IMG/VR virus record: IMGVR_UViG_3300047678_000129
Coordinates: 1-38,547 of that record
DNA: 38,547 nucleotides
Reading direction: 5' to 3' (one strand)
Origin: a virus
Part shown: in pieces, positions 948 through 38,547 of the stretch
Numbering within the stretch: position 1 is the first letter of the stretch
Layout of the letters: each line of letters starts with the position of its first letter
Notes under the pieces: generated by a model
What the model was told of the DNA's origin: nothing
Databases searched by the model: none
Seen by the model: only the letters and a program-made list of their open reading frames with translations
Position numbers and translations under genes: made by a program

Positions 948-1250
948 CTACCGAGATTTCTGCGGTCGAGCCTGTTGCAAGGCCTTCACTGCATCGGCAG
1001 TCTCGTAGCGAAGCCCAGAAGGGTCGCCGAGATAAATCCAATCGAGCGTCAAGTCGTAGGCTTCGACCAGTAAAATAGCGTTGTCGATGCTTGGTCGGCG
1101 CTCGCCCTTTTCGTATTGGTTGTATGTGTTATGGGCGATGCCAGCCCTCCTGCAAAAGGCCCGTTGATTGAGGCCTTCCACCTGTCGGACGAGCAGCAAT
1201 CGCTGGCCGATAGCCGCCACCGACTTTTCCCCAGCAGCATCTGTTGTCAT
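948..1250 (-). CDS. XRE-family HTH repressor (CI-like)
   Basis: This 100-residue protein is dominated by an HTH_XRE domain at about residues 13-75. IGQRLLLVRQVEGLNQRAFCRRAG is followed by the recognition region HNTYNQYEKGERRPSIDNAILL and the LDWIYLGD end typical of small Cro/CI-type repressors. There is no S24 peptidase domain, so induction by RecA-driven self-cleavage is not expected. ATG 1250 is reached from a promoter at 1280-1308 whose spacer holds operator 1286-1300, suggesting autorepression. It is divergent from the Cro-like gene, the classic bistable arrangement. Likely role: maintenance of lysogeny by binding the four shared operators. An antirepressor or other induction route is not visible. 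Confidence 0.85.
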   Translation of the reverse strand: MTTDAAGEKSVAAIGQRLLLVRQVEGLNQRAFCRRAGIAHNTYNQYEKGERRPSIDNAILLVEAYDLTLDWIYLGDPSGLRYETADAVKALQQARPQKSR

Positions 1251-1279
1251 GTGCCCATTGTCGTGATTGGCACGCGCGA

Positions 1280-1308
1280 ATGCTATTCACGCGATGCGAA
1301 CTTGACAA
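1280..1308 (-). promoter_or_regulatory. Promoter of the repressor gene
   Basis: On the minus strand there is a -35 TTGTCA (1308-1303), a 17-bp spacer and a -10 TAGCAT (1285-1280), giving a leader of about 20 bases before ATG 1250. The spacer contains operator 1286-1300. Its -35 overlaps the rightward -35 by five bases on the opposite strand. Confidence 0.6.
1286..1300. promoter_or_regulatory. Operator O3
   Basis: TTCAC-GCGAT-GCGAA carries one change in the right half-site relative to the perfect dyad. It lies inside the spacer of the repressor promoter, so binding would repress the repressor gene. Confidence 0.65.
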
Positions 1309-1332
1309 CAGTCACAATGTGTGAATTATATT
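1302..1332 (+). promoter_or_regulatory. Rightward early promoter (pR-like)
   Basis: There is a perfect -35 TTGACA at 1302-1307 and an AT-rich -10 region (TATATT at 1327-1332 with a 19-bp spacer; overlapping TTATAT or ATTATA give 18 or 17). Operator 1311-1325 lies in the spacer. The expected transcription start is at or within a few bases of ATG 1336, so the mRNA may be leaderless. Confidence 0.6.
1311..1325. promoter_or_regulatory. Operator O4
   Basis: GTCAC-AATGT-GTGAA lies within the spacer of the rightward promoter, 25 bp centre to centre from O3. Same half-sites as O1 and O2. Confidence 0.65.
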
Positions 1333-1335
1333 CTC

Positions 1336-1593
1336 ATGGCAAAACAACAACCCGTATTACACTCCGTTGCCGATGTCGTCAAAGCGTTCGGCGGCAATAA
1401 GCCTATTGCCAAGTGGTGCAACGTTCGCACGTCCGCCGTCTCAAACTGGCTGGAACGGGACTACATCCCTCCCGGCTGGCATTACCGGATGGCCGTCGAA
1501 CTTGGGCAGCGAGGCTATCAGGTTGACCCGATGGTGTTCGGGATCAACGCCGAGCTGGTGGGCAACCCCTACCGAGCAAAGCGAGTAGCGTAA
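1336..1593 (+). CDS. Cro-like HTH regulator
   Basis: This 85-residue protein begins MAKQQPVLHSVADVVKAFGG. Its helix-turn-helix part (NKPIAKWCNVRTSAVSNWLER, then DYIPPGWHYRMAVELG) resembles YdaS/Cro-type regulators of phage immunity regions, in which a residue pattern AVSNW marks the recognition helix. It lies just after the rightward promoter and opposite the repressor, so it is probably the lytic-side regulator. The start at 1336 is preferred over an in-frame GTG at 1321, because the latter lies upstream of the likely -10 box. There is no Shine-Dalgarno before 1336, consistent with leaderless translation. Confidence 0.75.
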   Translation: MAKQQPVLHSVADVVKAFGGNKPIAKWCNVRTSAVSNWLERDYIPPGWHYRMAVELGQRGYQVDPMVFGINAELVGNPYRAKRVA

Positions 1594-1690: not shown

Positions 1691-1720
1691 GGTATAGATG
1701 CATAAAGATGAACTCGAACT
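1691..1720 (+). repeat. 30-bp element shared with the parA upstream region
   Basis: The 20 bases from 1691 (GGTATAGATGCATAAAGATG) are identical to the reverse complement of 32918-32937. After one mismatch the next nine (ACTCGAACT) also match. Inside are two near-direct decamers, TATAGATGCA and TAAAGATG(C/A)A. The other copy lies immediately upstream of parA. It is a candidate binding site for the RHH protein or another shared regulator. Confidence 0.7.
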
Positions 1721-2098: not shown

Positions 2099-2167
2099 GT
2101 GCTGGTTTTTGCGGGCGTGCTGTTTGCCCTTACGCTCACTGCGCAAATCATTAACGCAGTCGAGTAG
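2099..2167 (+). CDS. Possible hydrophobic peptide (22 aa)
   Basis: GTG 2099 to TAG 2167 encodes a strongly apolar peptide (VLVFAGVLFALTLTAQIINA). The frame is open back to 2053, but no ATG or good Shine-Dalgarno is seen. It is listed only because early regions of this phage contain other one-helix peptides. Confidence 0.25.
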   Translation: MLVFAGVLFALTLTAQIINAVE

Positions 2168-2210
2168 TCGGGTCAATAGCGCGCTCTTGGGAATACACAG
2201 GAGCGGCGCC

Positions 2211-2942
2211 TTGAGCGTTGACGCGATTGCATTTGTGAAGACGCTCGACGTGGACAATCCCATGTCGCGCCTTCTGCTTTTTATTGTTGGTGAGAACACA
2301 TTCAACGACAGCGGCCTTTGCCGCGTCGGACAAGCAGTCCTTTGCGACGAAACCCGCGCAAGCGAGCGCACGGTTCGCAACCACATCAAGAAGCTCGCCA
2401 AGGCCAAGGTGCTTGCGGTCCATAAGCAAGCTAGGGCTGGGGGTGGGCGCGACGTGGACGCAATAGAGTTAGTTGGTTTCACCAATTGGCTCAAAGAAAA
2501 CAGAAAAAGCAAACCGGCAAAATCTGCCGGTTCAAACCGGCAAAATCTGCCGGTTCAAACCGGCAACCTGTTTGCCGGTTCAAACCGGCAACTGTTTGCC
2601 GGTTCATATAAGGATAACCGTACAAGTAACCGTACAAGTGAAACCCCTTTATCCCCTTTGGACACTCGCAAGGTCGAATTTGAAAATGGCAAGCTGACCC
2701 TTTTCAACGGCCTCCGACAATTTTGGGTTGACGAATTTGGCGGCGACGAAAAGCGCCTCGACCTCGCGCTGACGCAAGCGGCCGGTTACGTCCAGCCCAA
2801 CAGCAGCCGCCCGTTGGAAGCCCAGGTTTCCTCGCAACTCGCCAAGATCGCAGCGGAAAAGCGCGACCGGGACGCGCGCTATCTCGCCGCTGCCGCGGCG
2901 AACAAACCCGCCAAGAAAAAATTCCAACCTTCGCGCTGGTGA
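2211..2942 (+). CDS. Replication initiator with winged-helix/HTH N-terminus and internal origin
   Basis: TTG 2211 is chosen because AGGAG (2199-2203) sits 7 bases upstream; this gives 243 residues. The N-terminal part (MSRLLLFIVGENTFNDSGLCRVGQAVLCDETRAS...RTVRNHIKKLAKAKVLAV) is a winged helix-turn-helix typical of phage and plasmid replication initiators such as lambda O-type proteins. The middle (about residues 100-135) is encoded by four DNA repeats and looks like a flexible linker. The C-terminal part ends in a lysine-rich tail (NKPAKKKFQPSRW), perhaps for helicase contact. The next gene is a helicase. Likely job: binding the iterons inside its own gene and loading the helicase. The TTG start may keep expression low. 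Confidence 0.75.
   Translation: MSVDAIAFVKTLDVDNPMSRLLLFIVGENTFNDSGLCRVGQAVLCDETRASERTVRNHIKKLAKAKVLAVHKQARAGGGRDVDAIELVGFTNWLKENRKSKPAKSAGSNRQNLPVQTGNLFAGSNRQLFAGSYKDNRTSNRTSETPLSPLDTRKVEFENGKLTLFNGLRQFWVDEFGGDEKRLDLALTQAAGYVQPNSSRPLEAQVSSQLAKIAAEKRDRDARYLAAAAANKPAKKKFQPSRW
2511..2605. repeat. Four tandem palindromic iterons (probable replication origin)
   Basis: Four contiguous units start with AAACCGGCA and end with TGCCGGTTC, at 2511-2533 (23 bp), 2534-2556 (23), 2557-2581 (25) and 2582-2605 (24). Each is itself an inverted repeat (AACCGGCA/TGCCGGTT) with a variable 4-7 base centre. They lie inside the initiator gene, as lambda ori lies inside gene O. Two 12-bp tandem repeats (TAACCGTACAAG) follow at 2615-2638, next to a more AT-rich stretch. 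Confidence 0.8.
2615..2638 (+). repeat. Two tandem 12-bp repeats beside the iterons
   Basis: TAACCGTACAAG occurs at 2615-2626 and again at 2627-2638 without a gap. The region from 2606 (ATATAAGGATAACC) is locally AT-rich compared with the genome and could be the unwinding side of the origin. Confidence 0.6.
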
Positions 2943-2945
2943 ACC

Positions 2946-4118
2946 ATGCACGGCACCCTGAAAACCGAACCGCTGGTTATCGTTTCGAGCCAAGCCCACG
3001 AGAGGGCCGTGCGGGCTGCTGGCGCGACGAAAGTCGTGCTCGTTGACCCGCTGCGCGGCGGCGAGCAAATCCTCGGTTATCGCCCCTCGACGGGTGGCTA
3101 CGAGCTAGTCACCGGCTTCGAGCACGAGGCCTACCTGATCGCGCTACCGGCGCAGCTCGCGCAGCTTCGCGACGATCTTGCGGTGCGCCTTGGCGACGAG
3201 AAATGCCGCTGGTGCGACTGGCCCTTCGAGGGCGACGTGGTTGCTGCGCTGGCGTCGGCCCGGCCGATGTGGACGGACGAGCTGGCGACCCTCGACGACA
3301 TCCCCGATCCCGGCCCGGTGCAAACCTACGCGAGCGGTTTTCCTTTGCTCGATCAGCATGGGTTTCGTTTCGAGCTTCCGGCCTTCATGTCGATCATCGG
3401 CCCGTATGGTTCGGGCAAGAGCGTGCTGCTTCGCCAGCTACTCGTGCAGCTTCGCCGCCAACATGGCTGGAAGTGCCTGCTGACGAGCTTCGAGGAACGG
3501 GTAAAGCCCCGCTATCAAATGGATTTGCGCAGGCACTTCCTCGATTGCCGTGTGCAGGATGCCGATGAGCGCGAGCGCGCGCACGCGGACGCTGCAATCC
3601 GCCAGTCATTCGTGTTCCTCCGCCGCAAGCGCAACACCGTGCTCGACCTCGAAAGGCTACTCGACCGCATCGAGTTCGCCGTGAAGGTTTACGGCGTCAA
3701 GGTCGTTGCCATCGACCCCGTAAATGAGATCGACCACCAGGTCCCGAAGGGCGAAAGTAAGACCGACTACATGGGCCGCTTCATCATGAAGCTGAAGGCC
3801 CTCGCCGACGACTACGGCCTCTTGATGATTTGCTGCGCGCACCCGCCTAAGGACGGCGTTGAGAAGCGCCTGCAAAAGCACGGCCTGCTGACGCTCAATG
3901 ACGGCGCCGACACGGCGCATTGGGGCAACAAGTCCGATATCGGCTGGTGCGTTTGGCGCAATCTAGACGGCCCGACGTTGCTGCACATCGACAAGCTCAA
4001 GTGCCACGACACGATGGGCAAGCCGACGCTGGCGGAATTGTTTTTCGACAAGGACATGGGGCGCTTTCGCGTAGCTCGCATGGGCTACGACATTCTCGGC
4101 GACGGCAATGACGACTGA
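2946..4118 (+). CDS. Replicative DNA helicase, RecA-fold (DnaB/Twinkle-like)
   Basis: This 390-residue protein has an N-terminal part of about 125 residues that resembles a degenerate Toprim-like fold (LVIVSSQAHERAVRAAGATK, LVDPLRGGEQ). A RecA-type ATPase follows, with Walker A GPYGSGKS at residues 152-159, the FEERVKPRYQMD region, Walker B VVAIDPVNEID, and an ICCAHPPK motif with the sensor histidine. This matches phage helicases of the DnaB/gp4 type that unwind DNA at the fork. A short CxxC pair (CRWC, residues 87-90) in the N-terminal part is unusual. It follows the initiator by 3 bases and overlaps the next small gene by ATGACGACTGA, so it is part of the replication operon. No separate primase was found, so host DnaG is probably used. 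Confidence 0.85.
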   Translation: MHGTLKTEPLVIVSSQAHERAVRAAGATKVVLVDPLRGGEQILGYRPSTGGYELVTGFEHEAYLIALPAQLAQLRDDLAVRLGDEKCRWCDWPFEGDVVAALASARPMWTDELATLDDIPDPGPVQTYASGFPLLDQHGFRFELPAFMSIIGPYGSGKSVLLRQLLVQLRRQHGWKCLLTSFEERVKPRYQMDLRRHFLDCRVQDADERERAHADAAIRQSFVFLRRKRNTVLDLERLLDRIEFAVKVYGVKVVAIDPVNEIDHQVPKGESKTDYMGRFIMKLKALADDYGLLMICCAHPPKDGVEKRLQKHGLLTLNDGADTAHWGNKSDIGWCVWRNLDGPTLLHIDKLKCHDTMGKPTLAELFFDKDMGRFRVARMGYDILGDGNDD

Positions 4119-11259: not shown

Positions 11260-11928
11260 ATGAAGGAAATACCGAGCGCGCCGGGCCATTTCGCCGATGA
11301 GAACGGCGACATCTGGCATGGAGATCGCAAGCTCAACAGCTACGCCGGTAAGGACGGTTACGTGTCGGTTGCGCTTCGCAACGGCATGTGGAGCGCGAAC
11401 ACGCAGGTCCACAGGCTTGTGTGCGAGGCCTATCACGGGTCGCGCCCGCAGGGACATCAATGTCGCCACCTAAACGGCGTGCGCCACGACAACCAGCCAC
11501 ACAATCTCGCATGGGGAACTCCGATGGAGAATACCGACGACAAGCGGCGGCACGGCACGCTCCATCGTGGAGGTCGCAAGAAGAAACCTTTGGTTCTCCC
11601 GCCGATCAACGATGGGCGACGGTATCGCCGTAAGGGACAGCGGATGCCCCAGGTGCAGATCAACTTCAAGATTTCAGAGGCCGACAAGGCCATTCTTGTG
11701 CGGCTAGCTGAGCTTGAGCGCAAGAGCCTGACGGATGCCATGCTTGGCGCTGTCCGATCCGCTCTAGACGGAAAGATCGGGGTCGGAGTGGTGCGCGCAA
11801 CTATACCAAGTCTCGATTCTGAAATCTCGGCGCCATCTACCTGCTATCTACCAAATAGAACTGTGGGAAATCAGGTGGTTGATGATTTCGCGTTTTCGGA
11901 AATCCTGATTGACCGCGCGGCGGTTTAG
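11260..11928 (+). CDS. HNH homing endonuclease with C-terminal RHH-like domain
   Basis: ATG 11260 follows GAGGACGG. The N-terminal half (about residues 1-95) is a NUMOD4/HNH-type nuclease: FADENGDIWHG, a YVSVALRNG strand, then HRLVCEAYHG, HQCRHLNGVRHDNQPHNLAWGT with the HNH residues, and NTDDKRRHGT. A basic linker follows (RGGRKKKP). At about residues 127-167 there is a ribbon-helix-helix-like segment (VQINFKISEADKAILVRLAE, then LERKSLTDAMLGAVRSAL) that may act as its DNA-binding unit. Free-standing HNH genes spread by cutting genomes that lack them. Its location between scaffold and capsid genes, with an AT-rich leader, marks it as an insertion. Confidence 0.85.
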   Translation: MKEIPSAPGHFADENGDIWHGDRKLNSYAGKDGYVSVALRNGMWSANTQVHRLVCEAYHGSRPQGHQCRHLNGVRHDNQPHNLAWGTPMENTDDKRRHGTLHRGGRKKKPLVLPPINDGRRYRRKGQRMPQVQINFKISEADKAILVRLAELERKSLTDAMLGAVRSALDGKIGVGVVRATIPSLDSEISAPSTCYLPNRTVGNQVVDDFAFSEILIDRAAV

Positions 11929-30665: not shown

Positions 30666-30760
30666 CGTGGGCCTGCCGGGGCGGCTGGGCGATGGTGTTC
30701 TTCAACGTGGCGGGCTGCATCGGGTATGGTATTGGCCGCGCAATGGCGTGGGCGTTCTAA
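30662..30760 (+). CDS. Possible small membrane peptide (32 aa)
   Basis: A CTG at 30662 overlaps the previous stop as CTGA, with AAGGGGG upstream. The product (TWACRGGWAMVFFNVAGCIG, then YGIGRAMAWAF) is apolar. The stop overlaps the stop of the convergent minus-strand gene. The CTG start makes this uncertain; a shorter form from ATG 30695 is also possible. Confidence 0.35.
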   Translation: MTWACRGGWAMVFFNVAGCIGYGIGRAMAWAF

Positions 30761-31647
30761 GCCGCGAGCTTCACGCCGAGCACCTTGCCTTGCTGCATGG
30801 TCAACTCGGCAGCCTTGCAGAGTGCAACTAGGGCCTCGTCGAATTGCCCTCTGGGGAGCGCGCTGAGGCCCTTTTGTTGGGCGTGCTGGCAATAGGCCAG
30901 CCAAAGGCGTTTCGACTCCACGGACGCGCCTAGGGCCGGGGAAAGGCATTCCGCTGCGAAGGCGGCAACGTCAGCCATCTTGTGGGAGACTTCCACGACC
31001 GTTTTCGGAGTCTCTGCAACCTTCCTCTTGCCGTGCAGCGCCAGCCCGACCGCGAGTGATCCTCCGAGCACGGTGATGGACCGGAAGATTGCGAGGATTA
31101 GCGCGAGCCGCTGGGGCCTCATGCCCAGCTCATCGGCAAGCGCCGAGCGCGCCTGCGGCCGGGGCGCAGCGTCCAGCGCCACCCGCGCCGCAACCAATTC
31201 CCGGTCCGCCGCCGCTTGCGTGTTCCCCAGTAGCGTCCTGCAATTCAATGCGCAGCCCTTCTCGGCAGCCTTGGAGATCGCCGCTGCATCAGCGGCCCTC
31301 TTTGCGATCTCCGCGTCTGCAACCCGCTTCTCGGCGGCGGCGTGTGCCTCGGTAGCTTGGACGATTGGCGCGGCGTCCCGGAGCATCGCTTGCAGCTCGC
31401 GCTCGGTGTTCATTGCCGCCCAATAAATCTCCCCCACCACGATGGCGAACAGCAGGCCGGTGGCATAGAGCCATCCCCCGTTGGCGTACCCGTAGCCGAC
31501 GATTGCCGCGCCGACCAGAACGAGGAACGCGACGGCGACAATCAGCGGCGCTCCCTCGGACTGGAAGCCACCTGCGATCATGACGTTCCAGTAGGTCGCG
31601 GCGCTGACGACAGCGAGGCCGGATATGAAGGCGAGGAAGCGTATCAT
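30757..31647 (-). CDS. Membrane protein with coiled coil and D5-like C-terminal domain (296 aa)
   Basis: ATG 31647 has AAAGGG just upstream; a longer TTG start at 31677 would overlap the upstream gene. Membrane segments are seen at about residues 3-20, 34-54 and 59-78. An Ala-rich coiled coil (about 81-160) contains a GCALNC cysteine pair (132-136). A fourth membrane helix lies at about 181-204. The last about 70 residues (AFAAECLSPALGASVESKRL, WLAYCQHAQQ, LPRGQFDEALVAL) resemble the winged-helix domain at the C-terminus of D5/P4-type primases, here on a membrane protein. It is the last gene of the ParA cassette. Function unknown; signalling, exclusion or anchoring roles are possible. Confidence 0.7.
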   Translation of the reverse strand: MIRFLAFISGLAVVSAATYWNVMIAGGFQSEGAPLIVAVAFLVLVGAAIVGYGYANGGWLYATGLLFAIVVGEIYWAAMNTERELQAMLRDAAPIVQATEAHAAAEKRVADAEIAKRAADAAAISKAAEKGCALNCRTLLGNTQAAADRELVAARVALDAAPRPQARSALADELGMRPQRLALILAIFRSITVLGGSLAVGLALHGKRKVAETPKTVVEVSHKMADVAAFAAECLSPALGASVESKRLWLAYCQHAQQKGLSALPRGQFDEALVALCKAAELTMQQGKVLGVKLAA

Positions 31648-31666
31648 TGGGCGCCCTTTGCGTGAA

Positions 31667-31918
31667 TCATTTTCCAAGTGCGGATCGTGCCACTCTGTTG
31701 ATGCCAGAAACGAGCGGCCAGTCGTCGCTTTCCCTGTATGCGGCGGTGCGCAATTCTATCTCGCGCAGCGCTCGCTCATAGCGTTCACTCACGCAGACGG
31801 GGCAGAAAGCCGGGTCGCCTTCATGCTCGCAGAGTTGGTCGCCCATGCCCCGGCATTTGCACGGGTGCAGCGGGTCAAAATCGTTGCCGCATTTCTGGCA
31901 CTGCTCGCCGATCTGCAT
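31667..31918 (-). CDS. Cysteine-rich putative zinc-binding protein (83 aa)
   Basis: ATG 31918 opens a short protein with clustered cysteines: CQKC (7-10), CKC (20-22), then C30 with EH, and CPVC (39-42). Several Cys pairs and a His suggest one or two zinc sites. The C-terminal half is a charged helix (VSERYERALREIELRTAAYR). It lies 12 bases after the RHH gene and ends 19 bases before the membrane gene start, so the four genes form one unit. Function not recognised. Confidence 0.7.
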   Translation of the reverse strand: MQIGEQCQKCGNDFDPLHPCKCRGMGDQLCEHEGDPAFCPVCVSERYERALREIELRTAAYRESDDWPLVSGINRVARSALGK

Positions 31919-31930
31919 TGCTTCAGCGAC

Positions 31931-32275
31931 CTAAGTTATTGCCTTCTCGTCCTGCTCTTGCAGCAGATAGACGGCCTCTGTGATGATGTCCGTCATGCCG
32001 ACCCGCTTCTTCTGGGCGAGTGTCTGTATCACCAACTTGAGCTCCATCGGCACCTTGAAATTCAACTGCACCGTTGCGGCGGCTTGGCCTGAGCGGCGGC
32101 GGCGACCGTCCCCATAGTGGAACGCATCTTCCTCGCGGCGCACGCGCTCGGCGAGTTTTGACGGCTTCTTAGCCCTGCCCCGTTTTGCAGGAGGCTCGGC
32201 CCTCGATGCCGCTATCCCCGCTATGAATTTTGCCACGGCGTCGGGGTCCATGCCTGACAGGTCATCTTTGCTCAC
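31931..32275 (-). CDS. Ribbon-helix-helix partner of ParA (ParG/CopG-like)
   Basis: GTG 32275 overlaps the parA stop as GTGA, showing translational coupling. The 114-residue protein has a basic, flexible N-terminal part (PPAKRGRAKKPSKLAERVRR, DGRRRRSG) and a C-terminal RHH domain (ATVQLNFKVPMELKLVIQTL, AQKKRVGMTDIITEAVYLL). Type Ib partition systems pair a small ParA with exactly such a protein (for example ParF with ParG), where the flexible arm stimulates the ATPase and the RHH binds the centromere and operator. It could equally act as a plain repressor of the cassette. Confidence 0.8.
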   Translation of the reverse strand: MSKDDLSGMDPDAVAKFIAGIAASRAEPPAKRGRAKKPSKLAERVRREEDAFHYGDGRRRRSGQAAATVQLNFKVPMELKLVIQTLAQKKRVGMTDIITEAVYLLQEQDEKAIT

Positions 32276-32892
32276 ACGCGCTCCTTGGGCAGCAGCGCGG
32301 CGACCTCTTTCCAGAGTGCGGCGATCTCCTTCTGGGCCGTGTCGTCCAGTTCGCCGCCCGTGGCGCCCTTGCTCATGGCTCTGACGTGCGCGGCGCGGTG
32401 GGTGATATGCGAGCGCGCGACGGACCCGAACACTTGCAGCGTAGTGGCGAGCTGGTCCCCGGCGTGCCCCTGTGGCGGCGCCGCGCTGACCACAAAGATA
32501 AAGGGGCTCCCTTCGCCCTCGATTATTTCCATCATCGTTTCTGTGGACTCAAGATCGAGCATCGACGGGCGCACTGGGATCACAACCAGGTCAGCCGCTC
32601 CGATGGCGGCCGTGATCGTGCGGACTATGGCGGGCGGTGTGTCGAGGATCGCGAGCGTGCAGCCTTCTTCCTCTAGCCCGTCGAGGCAGCGGGCAAGCGA
32701 GCCCTGCACCTTGACGATAGCCGGGTTCTCTGGCTCGCCACGGCGCTCCCACCATTGCTCAAGCGTGTCCTGGGGGTCGAGGTTGAGCAGCGCGACGCGC
32801 TCGCCACGGCGCGCGGCCTCGACGGCTAATGCGGCTGCCGTGGTTGATTTACCAGCGCCACCCTTTAGGGACGAGACGGCCAAGGTTTTCAT
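32272..32892 (-). CDS. parA: ParA-type ATPase (small, ParF-like)
   Basis: This 206-residue protein has a deviant Walker A KGGAGKST at residues 10-17, an LDPQDTLEQWWERR switch region, Walker B LAILDTPP and the VVIPVRPSMLDLESTETMME segment. All are typical of the ParF/type Ib ParA subfamily that uses ATP-dependent dimerisation to position DNA. There is no N-terminal HTH, also as in type Ib. The start ATG 32892 has a GGAAC region. The RHH gene follows with a GTGA overlap, and a 30-bp element repeated elsewhere lies 16 bases upstream. The orientation opposes the lysis genes, so it can be expressed in a lysogen. Confidence 0.88.
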   Translation of the reverse strand: MKTLAVSSLKGGAGKSTTAAALAVEAARRGERVALLNLDPQDTLEQWWERRGEPENPAIVKVQGSLARCLDGLEEEGCTLAILDTPPAIVRTITAAIGAADLVVIPVRPSMLDLESTETMMEIIEGEGSPFIFVVSAAPPQGHAGDQLATTLQVFGSVARSHITHRAAHVRAMSKGATGGELDDTAQKEIAALWKEVAALLPKERV

Positions 32893-32907
32893 AGCGTTCC
32901 GTCGCGG

Positions 32908-32938
32908 AGTTCGAGTGCATCTTTATGCATCTATACCT
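32908..32938 (-). repeat. parA-upstream copy of the shared 30-bp element
   Basis: Read on the minus strand it is GGTATAGATGCATAAAGATG, then C, then ACTCGAACT, matching 1691-1720 at 29 of 30 positions. It holds two direct decamers TATAGATGCA and TAAAGATGCA, and two ACTC boxes just downstream (ACTCGAACTC). Short direct repeats upstream of a type Ib parA are where centromere/operator sites usually lie. Confidence 0.7.
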
Positions 32939-32973: not shown

Positions 32974-32990
32974 CTGTCCCGCTGGGACAG
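32974..32990. other. Palindrome left of the att core (possible integrase/excisionase arm site)
   Basis: CTGTCCC-GCT-GGGACAG is a perfect 7-bp dyad. A near copy occurs at 33184-33200. The two flank the tRNA-like core at 33086-33138, suggesting recombination accessory sites. Confidence 0.45.
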
Positions 32991-33085
32991 ATTTGTGGGA
33001 ACGGGGGAAGAACCGGCACCAAAATCGTCCGCATCGTGATTAGAAAAACGCAACGGACTCAAATGGGAAACTTCGGCGCGGTTCC

Positions 33086-33138
33086 TTGAGGTGGTAGCGG
33101 GGCAACCCGTGGAGGTTCGAGTCCTCTCGACCGCACCA
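33086..33138 (+). other. attP core: 3' half of a tRNA-Leu(GAG-type) gene
   Basis: The segment holds an anticodon-loop-like TTGAGGT, a long variable arm CGGG-GCAA-CCCG, a T arm GGAGG-TTCGAGT-CCTCT, acceptor strand CGACCGC, discriminator A and CCA. There is no matching 5' half (GCGGTCG) upstream, so this is not a complete tRNA. It lies 15 bases past the integrase stop. Integration into host tRNA-Leu would restore the tRNA 3' end. The exact crossover borders cannot be set from one sequence. Confidence 0.85.
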
Positions 33139-33153
33139 TAAGGGTTTTTTGGC

Positions 33154-34344
33154 CTAAATGGCATTTGAAGCCCCGTCTTGGTTCTGTCCCATTGGGACGG
33201 ACTTTGAGCTTTCCAGACCCTCATCGGAGCCCGCTTCGGCCTCGGAATGGGCAATTTTGGGTAACGGGGCAAACTCCGCATCGAGCAGCGAAACGGCCTC
33301 CGTCAGAAGCTCGTGCGACGAGTGCGTGTAGACCTTGTTCGTTGTGAGCGGGTTCGCGTGGCCCAGGAGCTGCGCCCGGCGCCGGTCATCGACTGCCTTC
33401 GCTTCCAGCCAGGTCGAAACGGTGTGGCGGATCGTGTGCGGCGTTATCTTGTCGCTCAACTTGGCGCGGGCGACCGCCGCCGCGAAGCCCTCACGGATGC
33501 TCTTGAGACGCTTGCCGCCGTGCTCGATGACGTGGACGGTTTGGCGCCCCTTGTGGGCCGTTGTTAGCGCCGCGCGAACGGTCTTGTTCATGGGAACCGT
33601 CGCCCTGCCTTTGCGCCACGCCTTTGACATTGGGTCGGGCGGCAAGTCCTCGTCAAATTCGATCACGCCCCGATTGAAGTCGATGCGGTCCCAGGTGAGA
33701 TCGAGGATCGCCATGTGCCGCGCTCCGGTCGCGAAGGCGAGAACCACAAACAGATAGACGTGAGGGTCGCCGCCGTTCGCACCTTCGACAAGCAACTTAG
33801 CCTCATCAATGGACAGAACGCGATCACGGTGTTTGCCGGGGCGGGGCACCCACACCTTGGGCCGTCTCGCTATCAGGTGCGTGTCAGCCGCCCATTTGAG
33901 GCAGGCGCGCAAGCGAACCAGCTCGGTGTGCACCGTCCACGGCGCTTTCCCGAGCTTGAAGCGTGCATCGGCATAGTCGCGATAGTCCTGCGCGGCCAGA
34001 AGCTCTGGCGACCGGGGGCCGAAGAAAGGGCCGAGCGCAACCCAGTTGGCCTTATAGATGGCGTTGCTTAGACGGTCTGCCTCGCGCTCCTTGAGCCACA
34101 ACTTCCAAAGCTCGGCAACGAGATACGACGCCTGCTGCTTCTGGACGGCCCGCCGCGCTTCCGCAAAGCGATCAAGCGCGGCCTTGGCCTCGTCGATGCG
34201 CCCGAACGGAACCCCTAGCCGCGCCCGCTTGCGCTTACCATTTTCATCGCGGTAGTCGGCAACTGCGACGGTAATGCCGTCCTCAGTGCGCCATCCGAGG
34301 GCGCAGTCTCCATTGCGGTGCTTTTCTTGTTTTCGCTTTCCCAT
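33154..34344 (-). CDS. int: Tyrosine-family site-specific integrase
   Basis: In this 396-residue protein, the N-terminal part binds arm sites (GITVAVADYRDENGKRKRAR). A core-binding SAM-like domain lies around residues 75-160. The catalytic domain has Arg in AFATGARHMAILDL (about 209), HTIRHTVSTWL, LLGHANPLTTNKVYTHSS with His and the nucleophile Tyr. All catalytic residues are present, so it should be active. The gene ends 15 bases from the tRNA-Leu core. Its C-terminal tail (SKSVPMGQNQDG) is partly encoded by palindrome 33184-33200. It overlaps the excisionase-like gene by 130 bases. Confidence 0.92.
   Translation of the reverse strand: MGKRKQEKHRNGDCALGWRTEDGITVAVADYRDENGKRKRARLGVPFGRIDEAKAALDRFAEARRAVQKQQASYLVAELWKLWLKEREADRLSNAIYKANWVALGPFFGPRSPELLAAQDYRDYADARFKLGKAPWTVHTELVRLRACLKWAADTHLIARRPKVWVPRPGKHRDRVLSIDEAKLLVEGANGGDPHVYLFVVLAFATGARHMAILDLTWDRIDFNRGVIEFDEDLPPDPMSKAWRKGRATVPMNKTVRAALTTAHKGRQTVHVIEHGGKRLKSIREGFAAAVARAKLSDKITPHTIRHTVSTWLEAKAVDDRRRAQLLGHANPLTTNKVYTHSSHELLTEAVSLLDAEFAPLPKIAHSEAEAGSDEGLESSKSVPMGQNQDGASNAI
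33184..33200. other. Palindrome right of the att core, inside int
   Basis: CTGTCCC-ATT-GGGACGG matches the dyad at 32974-32990 except for the centre and one outer base. It is part of the integrase coding sequence near its 3' end. The symmetric placement around the core makes a binding-site role plausible. Confidence 0.4.
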
Positions 34345-34499
34345 CTACGCCTCTCGTGGTCTGTGATGCGCACCCCGCGCTTGCCGATGCCGAAGGCATC
34401 CAGTTCGCCTCGGTCTATCATCTTGTAAATCGTGCTCGGCACACAGCCCCATTTCTTGGCGAGGCGGCTGACCGACCAGGCTGGCTTGTCGTCGTCCAT
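34215..34499 (-). CDS. Excisionase-like HTH protein (94 aa)
   Basis: ATG 34499 has GGGGGAG in front and is preferred to an upstream start. The N-terminal 60 residues (AWSVSRLAKKWGCVPSTIYK, MIDRGELDAFGIGKRGVRIT, HERRRWE) form an HTH_17/MerR-like winged helix typical of phage excisionases. The C-terminal 35 residues are encoded within the overlap with int, in a different frame, and look like low-complexity read-on. The location directly upstream of int and the overlap support a role in directionality of recombination. Confidence 0.75.
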   Translation of the reverse strand: MDDDKPAWSVSRLAKKWGCVPSTIYKMIDRGELDAFGIGKRGVRITDHERRRWESENKKSTAMETAPSDGALRTALPSQLPTTAMKMVSASGRG

Positions 34500-34519
34500 G
34501 CTCTCCCCCTCTCGCATTA

Positions 34520-34723
34520 TCAACCGCCCACTTCGCGAAGCATGTCCATGTCCAGGCCCATGGCGTTGAGCGCGTCCGTGATCTGACCTCGCGCTGTGTC
34601 TTTGGTCGCGCCACAGCCGGCGATGACGACCGAATATCCACGGTCCCCGGTGGTGTAGTCGCCGCGCAGTTCGGCCTCGAAGGCCATGCCGATTGCTCTG
34701 ATTTTGATGTCTGAGAGCACCAT
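34520..34723 (-). CDS. Hypothetical small protein (67 aa)
   Basis: ATG 34723 overlaps the previous stop as TAATG. The product (SDIKIRAIGMAFEAELRGDY, then GYSVVIAGCGATKDTARGQI, TDALNAMGL) reads like a small alpha/beta domain of no known family. A short dyad CACCAT/ATGGTG surrounds its start codon. It is part of the leftward early operon. Confidence 0.65.
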   Translation of the reverse strand: MVLSDIKIRAIGMAFEAELRGDYTTGDRGYSVVIAGCGATKDTARGQITDALNAMGLDMDMLREVGG

Positions 34724-37967: not shown

Positions 37968-38547
37968 TCAGTCGTGCTGCTGAGCTTCTGTCGTGGTCAA
38001 TGCCGCTTCCGCATCAGCGAGACGCTTCATGTCGTCCAGCGCCGTTTCGTTGTCGCAGTAGAAATCCGGGATGCGCTCGATCTTGGGGTCGCTGGCGAGA
38101 TAGATCAGAGCCGCTGCGGCGGGCGTGCCCATGCAGAACTCCATCGCCTTGCCCGCATCACCCGCCAGCGTGACAACCCATCCGGCACGGCAGTGCGCCG
38201 TGCCGCAGGCCGTTTTGGCGTGCCAATTGCCCATATCGAGGGCGTTGGGTGCGCTCGCCGCCTCGAAAACCGCGCGATGTATGTTGGGAATTTTGGGAAC
38301 ACCGCGCAGGTCGGCACCGCTCAGGTCGGCACCGCTCAGGTTGGCACCGCTCAGGTCGGCACCGCTCAGGTCGGCACCGCGCAGGTTGGCACCACGCAGG
38401 TTGGCATCGCCCAGGTTGGCACCGCGCAGGTCGGCACCGCGCAGGTTGACATCGCGCAGGTTGGCATCGCCCAGGTTGGCATCGCTCAGGTTGGCATCGC
38501 GCAGGTTGGCACCGCTCAGGTCGGCATCGCCCAGGTTGGCATCGTTC
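37968..38547 (-). CDS. Pentapeptide-repeat protein, C-terminal part (enters from the right end)
   Basis: This is the continuation of the gene that starts at 401. From 38546 leftward the frame reads [16 protein letters not shown] and further pentapeptides up to about 38300. A non-repeat C-terminal domain of about 110 residues follows, with the landmarks [48 protein letters not shown] and an acidic end EAQQHD. The stop is at 37968. I recall this arrangement (short N-terminal domain, pentapeptides, C-terminal CGTxHCRAGW domain) from proteins of other alphaproteobacterial phages, but know no proven function. An ATG-initiated frame at 38234 exists, but it is only the tail of this gene because the frame is open far upstream. 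It lies upstream of the small early genes at 37730-37918 and 37584-37748. Confidence 0.9.
38401..38547. repeat. Terminal overlap with the start of the window (circular contig)
   Basis: Bases 38401-38526 are identical to 1-126. From 38527 to 38547 the match to 127-147 continues with three mismatches. The overlap falls inside the pentapeptide gene and keeps its frame, as expected for a circular or circularly permuted molecule cut in a gene. A true packaged terminal repeat inside a gene is less likely. The mismatches at the very end may come from misassembly of the 15-bp repeat. Confidence 0.85.

Follow-up and report, generated by a model that had tools for sequence, protein, structure and literature searches.

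A type Ib ParA-RHH cassette beside the integrase and tRNA attP of a lambda-type phage: a candidate partition module

Integration and plasmid-style partition are usually regarded as alternative persistence modes of temperate phages. The genome analysed here raises the question of what a plasmid-type partition pair does next to an integration system. An earlier note on this DNA had described four minus-strand genes, encoding a small ParA, a ribbon-helix-helix (RHH) partner, a Cys-rich protein and a membrane protein, adjoining a tyrosine integrase and a tRNA-derived attP. It had left two answers standing: either the phage is a phage-plasmid with two ways to persist, or the ParA system has been recruited for another job. 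The window, by which we mean the whole stretch of DNA analysed, is one virus record of 38547 bases.

The phage genome and its integration functions

The plus-strand genes of the window encode an O-like initiator and a DnaB-like helicase (together at 2109..4118), a terminase, a portal-type head-tail adaptor, a major head protein and tail proteins. The right-hand minus-strand genes encode an Erf-like protein, an exonuclease, NinB, an excisionase-like protein and the integrase. The cassette was found on the minus strand, with attP on one side and the convergent late genes on the other. Both record ends (1-288 and 38249-38547) lie within pentapeptide-repeat DNA, and judging from these ends a circular genome may have been broken by the assembler in the pentapeptide repeat. 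The repeats CAAACCGGCAAAATCTGCCGGTT at 2510-2590, inside the O-like gene, resemble the iterons of a lambda-type origin.

The integrase (33154..34344, minus strand, 396 aa) matched PF00589 at 2.3e-21 and phrog_1 at 2.2e-49, in agreement with the description of a complete tyrosine integrase adjoining the cassette. The excisionase-like gene (34215..34523, minus strand) matched phrog_66 at 3.8e-6. The attP core (33086..33139, plus strand) corresponds to the 3' part of a tRNA-Leu; 37 bp of it are an exact match to the tRNA-Leu(gag) of one alphaproteobacterial genome, which bears out the proposed tRNA attP. Sinorhizobium plasmid-collection records contain a 54-bp match at 89%. No complete tRNA was found in the window by ARAGORN, as expected for an attP fragment, and the number of Rfam families in the window was zero. 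Two near-identical palindromes, CTGTCCCGCTGGGACAGA at 32974..32991 and CTGTCCCATTGGGACGGA at 33184..33201, lie to the left and right of attP, respectively. They occur at these two loci only in the window, with 0.03 matches expected, and are putative arm-type sites of the integrase. The integrase, the excisionase-like gene and an attP matching a host tRNA, all of them present, point to an integrating temperate phage. With attP located between int and parA, the two ends of the prophage would carry int and the cassette, respectively, as had been predicted.

The immunity region (948..1593) comprises a repressor-like HTH gene (948-1250, minus strand; the HTH was read by eye from the ORF), a cro-like gene (1321-1593, plus strand) and putative operators. 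The dyad TTCACN5GTGAA was found four times, at 642, 674, 1286 and 1311, in two pairs around the repressor-like gene. These are the only matches genome-wide (0.96 expected), and all of them are in the immunity region and none near parA. The dyads are probably the operators of the phage repressor and Cro.

The ParA-RHH pair and its relatives

All four cassette genes were found as ORFs in the order previously described. They are separated by a 4-nt overlap, a 12-nt gap and then, depending on the start codon chosen, an 11-nt overlap or a 19-nt gap; this close spacing suggests that the four genes form a single operon. Codon usage clearly supported parA (0.305 bits/codon), the RHH gene (0.298) and the membrane protein gene (0.264), with the other frames negative or near zero, and supported the Cys-rich ORF only marginally (0.025).

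ParA (32272..32892, minus strand) is a 206-aa Walker-type ATPase with the motif KGGAGKST and without an N-terminal HTH. It matched phrog_164 at 2.8e-34 and the NCBIfam family ParA_partition (NF041546) at 1.4e-41, with a score of 142 bits that is below the curated cut-off of 180. Its full-length matches in the PDB were pNOB8 ParA (5u1g) and TP228 ParF (4dzz), both at 3e-12. By these matches ParA is a small type Ib ATPase of the ParF/pNOB8 class, and the first assignment of the gene is upheld.

The RHH gene (31931..32275, minus strand) overlaps parA through the sequence GTGA and encodes 114 aa, with a basic N-terminal tail and a C-terminal ribbon-helix-helix. As a single sequence, the protein gave weak matches to RHH families (0.005-0.07). 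A profile built from this partner and the partners from nine relatives matched ParG (1p94) at 5.6e-4 and omega at 0.47. In the AF2 model, the N-terminal helix is followed by a basic stretch of low confidence and by an RHH fold at pLDDT >90. Profile and model together indicate that the partner is a ParG-like RHH protein, the adjacent adaptor of ParA, and the GTGA-coupled RHH partner of the earlier note was thereby recovered.

A second RHH-like domain was observed elsewhere in the genome. An HNH homing-type endonuclease (11260-11928, plus strand), located between the protease and the major head protein, has a C-terminal RHH-like domain that is 38% identical to the partition RHH protein over 71 aa (3e-8). 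The linker DGRRxRRxGQ is common to both. By sequence comparison, one RHH-like domain is shared within this phage by a homing-type endonuclease and a partition partner.

Among viral relatives of ParA, the next ORF was found at -4 (4 nt before the parA end) in 42 of 80 loci, the commonest arrangement, a count based on a heuristic choice of ORF in which not every ORF is confirmed as an RHH. Plasmid relatives were found in 538 records; in those inspected as examples, parA lay beside RHH genes and/or replication initiators (rep). A tyrosine recombinase was present in 7 of 41 related viral records and absent from 34, and a serine recombinase of the resolvase family was present in 18, in most cases with the size of a resolvase; one record had both types. 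These counts are subject to possible fragmentation of the records and to the fact that a recombinase of Xer type does not necessarily integrate. Because of the frequency of serine recombinases and the general absence of tyrosine recombinases, the family appears to reside mainly on phage-plasmid-like elements. The viral relatives would thus be mostly phage-plasmid-like, and the integrating phage described here would be of a minority type.

Other integrase-bearing relatives had neither tRNA genes nor a convincing tRNA attP fragment in the stretches fetched, and two relatives of the integrase (L176 and L177) have no parA beside int. In the immunity/replication region of two lambda-like phages (L030 and L054), parA and an RHH-like ORF of 72 aa were observed next to an HTH gene; both records also contain a tyrosine integrase.

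One trait of a phage-plasmid is present, the combination of phage structural genes (terminase, portal, major capsid protein and tail) with the plasmid partition genes for ParA and RHH. The partition system of the SXT/R391 elements, srpMRC, is ParM-like rather than ParA/RHH. These elements are integrating ICEs with active partition and resemble this phage in being chromosomal elements that encode partition for a circular form, being ICEs where the element here is a phage (PMC4489591). The plasmid prophages phiCD38-2, pVv01 and D6 are likewise tailed temperate phages and carry the same two kinds of protein, a type Ib ParA and an RHH protein; they are maintained as plasmids with Xer/Cre-like recombinases or resolvases (PMC8026635), whereas the phage described here has an integrase, an excisionase-like gene and a tRNA attP. 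In cluster A mycobacteriophages such as RedRock, temperate phages with partition genes and centromere sites near those genes, parABS replaces the integration cassette (PMC7157519); here partition and integration genes stand side by side instead of being substituted. The combination of an integrase with a type Ib partition pair is a variant of these known kinds.

The interchange of parABS and integration cassettes in mycobacteriophages (PMC7157519) shows that such swaps occur, and most viral relatives of the cassette are without a tyrosine recombinase. Both points would fit a relic, in which a phage-plasmid ancestor later gained int and attP and left the cassette, with the two copies of the 30-bp element described below, as remnants under limited selection. 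Against this, all four frames are open and three have good codon bias, the Walker motif is intact, and the 30-bp element is still conserved at 29 of 30 positions at two places. We regard a relic as improbable.

The Cys-rich and membrane proteins

The Cys-rich protein (31667..31918, minus strand, 83 aa) has seven Cys residues, at positions 7, 10, 20, 22, 30, 39 and 42. Weak matches to Zn_ribbon_8 (0.022) and an FmdB-type ribbon (0.009) make a zinc ribbon possible.

The membrane protein (30757..31677, minus strand) has 306 aa if translated from a TTG codon, or 296 aa from the ATG at 31647. Hydropathy indicated hydrophobic segments close to the N terminus and around residues 182-200. The middle of the protein is long and helical and contains the motif GCALNC. 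Residues 226-306 (306-aa numbering) form a C-terminal winged helix in the AF2 model, in which the tail has a pLDDT of 85-92. In Foldseek, the RFX DNA-binding domain was the first match of the tail (probability 1.00, TM (target) 0.64, E 0.058). Pox_D5 matched the tail alone at 0.028, with 15.3 bits against a cut-off of 21.4, and did not reach significance. The description of the tail as a D5-like winged helix therefore holds for the predicted fold, a winged helix of RFX-like type, and not for a proven relationship to primases. The tail is like the C-terminal winged helix of D5/P4-type primases, which is RFX-like, in its topology and in the weak Pox_D5 match; it differs in that a helical stalk and membrane segments precede it in the same protein, with no primase or helicase domain.

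A search of viral contigs, plasmids and phages found no relatives of the membrane protein apart from one domain, in the third gene of the viral contig L002. The ParA of L002 is 43% identical to that of this phage, and the order ParA-RHH-winged-helix protein is the same, with no transmembrane helices and no Cys-rich gene. The membrane protein matched the third gene of L002 at 3e-4 with 28% identity in tblastn and at 7e-4 in phmmer, and Pox_D5 weakly matched each of the two proteins independently. The pairwise evidence for homology between the tail and the L002 gene is modest, and gene position and the Pox_D5 matches agree with it. The Cys-rich and membrane genes are, as had been stated, extras that are no standard part of type Ib loci; the third component is not wholly unique to this phage, as the same winged-helix domain follows ParA-RHH in L002. 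Three other candidate relatives were rejected: two matches in 385 alphaproteobacterial genomes, in which the alignments cross stop codons, and one contig from a search with the motif GCxxNCR (L163), in which the match is in an unrelated frame.

As a working guess, the membrane protein may hold a DNA-binding tail at the membrane and so tether or sense phage DNA. If it acts with ParA, a membrane protein with an RFX-like tail would be a new kind of partner. The presence of a membrane protein in the cassette could also fit a host-directed system, which would affect the cell and not the phage DNA. Such a system might halt cell division or shift its timing, as is reported for a system with ParA in ICEclc, an integrating element (PMC6812849). 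On the other side, a ParG-like RHH partner would be expected to have a DNA site as its target, and the phage has a candidate pair of such sites. We consider an action on the host very improbable.

A repeated 30-bp element and the role of the cassette

A 30-bp element, GGTATAGATGCATAAAGATG[C/A]ACTCGAACT, was found at two places in the window. Site A (GGTATAGATGCATAAAGATGCACTCGAACT; 32908..32937, minus strand) has its end 15 nt upstream of the parA start codon (ATG); within it is a tandem repeat of 10 bp (32916-32935). Site B (1691..1720, plus strand) is a second copy, identical at 29 of 30 positions, between the cro-like and O-like genes. Both sites face the downstream gene. The longest exact match between them is 20 nt; in 40 random third-order genomes such matches reached at most 14 nt. 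There is no third copy in the window, where the next-best place has 12 mismatches, and the element did not occur in other viral contigs or other fetched loci (L001 is the window itself). An identity as a phage-repressor operator was rejected: the TTCACN5GTGAA dyad differs. As all four putative operators are in the immunity region, the element appears to be a distinct signal.

We propose the element as a candidate operator/centromere of the RHH protein, linking partition to replication. The proposal that RHH binds both copies is modelled on pSM19035, in which the omega protein has parS sites that overlap the copS, delta and omega promoters (PMC9499535). TP228 parF-parG and pSM19035 delta-omega resemble the cassette in having a small ParA without an HTH, an RHH adaptor with a basic tail and a repeat-containing site immediately upstream of parA. 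They differ from it in several respects. The site upstream of parA here has only a two-copy 10-bp repeat and no longer array, whereas in pSM19035 at least four contiguous repeats are needed for full ParA activation (PMC9499535). In addition, the operon here has two further genes and lies beside int and a tRNA attP, and the second copy of the element is remote from the first: it belongs to the replication region of the phage, at a distance of about 7.3 kb provided that the genome is circular.

The reading that we favour, with a probability of roughly 55%, sees in the cassette a partition module of type Ib, carried by a lambda-type integrating phage, which serves an extrachromosomal phase (the unintegrated or excised genome) and may be linked to replication by way of the shared site. 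An RHH dimer would bind site A, repressing its own operon and forming the partition complex. It would also bind site B, which could be a second centromere and/or an operator that adjusts early/replication transcription, on the model of omega at PcopS, Pdelta and Pomega. ParA-ATP on the nucleoid would then move the complex of RHH and DNA, distributing copies to both daughter cells. The weakest step is the last, in which the membrane-anchored winged-helix protein of the same operon might tether or sense DNA at the membrane.

The ParA family, the RHH-ParG profile match, the RHH fold, the gene overlap, the rep neighbours on plasmids and the 30-bp pair all argue for partition. Of the two answers left by the earlier note, partition is favoured over a recruited job because the relatives are plasmid and phage-plasmid genes and because the element recurs in the replication region; a plasmid state as such we only infer. 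Several points count against partition. An integrated prophage needs no partition, and replication genes of the lambda O/DnaB type usually serve lytic growth, which counts against a plasmid phase. Long iteron arrays, which are typical of parS, are missing from site A, and the absence of the element from other viral contigs deprives it of comparative support. The main ORFs that were searched yielded only the O-like initiator and DnaB-like helicase, with no plasmid-type Rep initiator or resolvase recognised, and a search around the cassette gave no consensus sigma-70 promoter.

The position of site B between the cro-like and O-like genes would also suit the main rival to partition, superinfection control, in which partition proteins act as an immunity or incompatibility device. 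The cassette would be expressed from the attR end of the prophage, and RHH, together with ParA and the membrane protein, would bind site B of an incoming related genome, excluding it by blocking early/replication transcription or by anchoring it at the membrane. The location opposite int is that of a moron, the membrane protein bears a DNA-binding-type tail, and no putative repressor operator lies at the cassette, so that expression in lysogens is conceivable. Weighing against it, the relatives of the parA-RHH pair are mostly plasmid or phage-plasmid partition genes, and we know of no example of partition proteins used for superinfection control. PADLOC gave no defence match beyond generic P-loop hits, and a defence system was rejected on that basis. 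Superinfection control is a real if minor possibility.

We hold as doubtful an extended form of the partition reading, with two modes of inheritance, in which RHH bound at sites A and B would act as a switch coupling cassette expression with the replication region, and the winged-helix protein would anchor the phage's own or an invading genome at the membrane. If true, this partition system would have a third component, a membrane anchor for DNA. One compact genome here combines a seemingly complete system for integration at a tRNA with a type Ib pair and a 30-bp site shared with the replication region. It makes a partitioned plasmid phase testable, and the same genome allows partition proteins that double as immunity to be tested.

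Several further features were observed near the two copies of the element. A very stable hairpin (1647-1684; -36.5 kcal/mol with flanks, z -5.4) stands directly before site B, and a terminator-like hairpin lies downstream of it, at about 2020-2050. Between the two hairpins is a small ORF (1921-2013) with a hydrophobic stretch. A 13-codon leader ORF can be read by eye from each copy of the 30-bp element.
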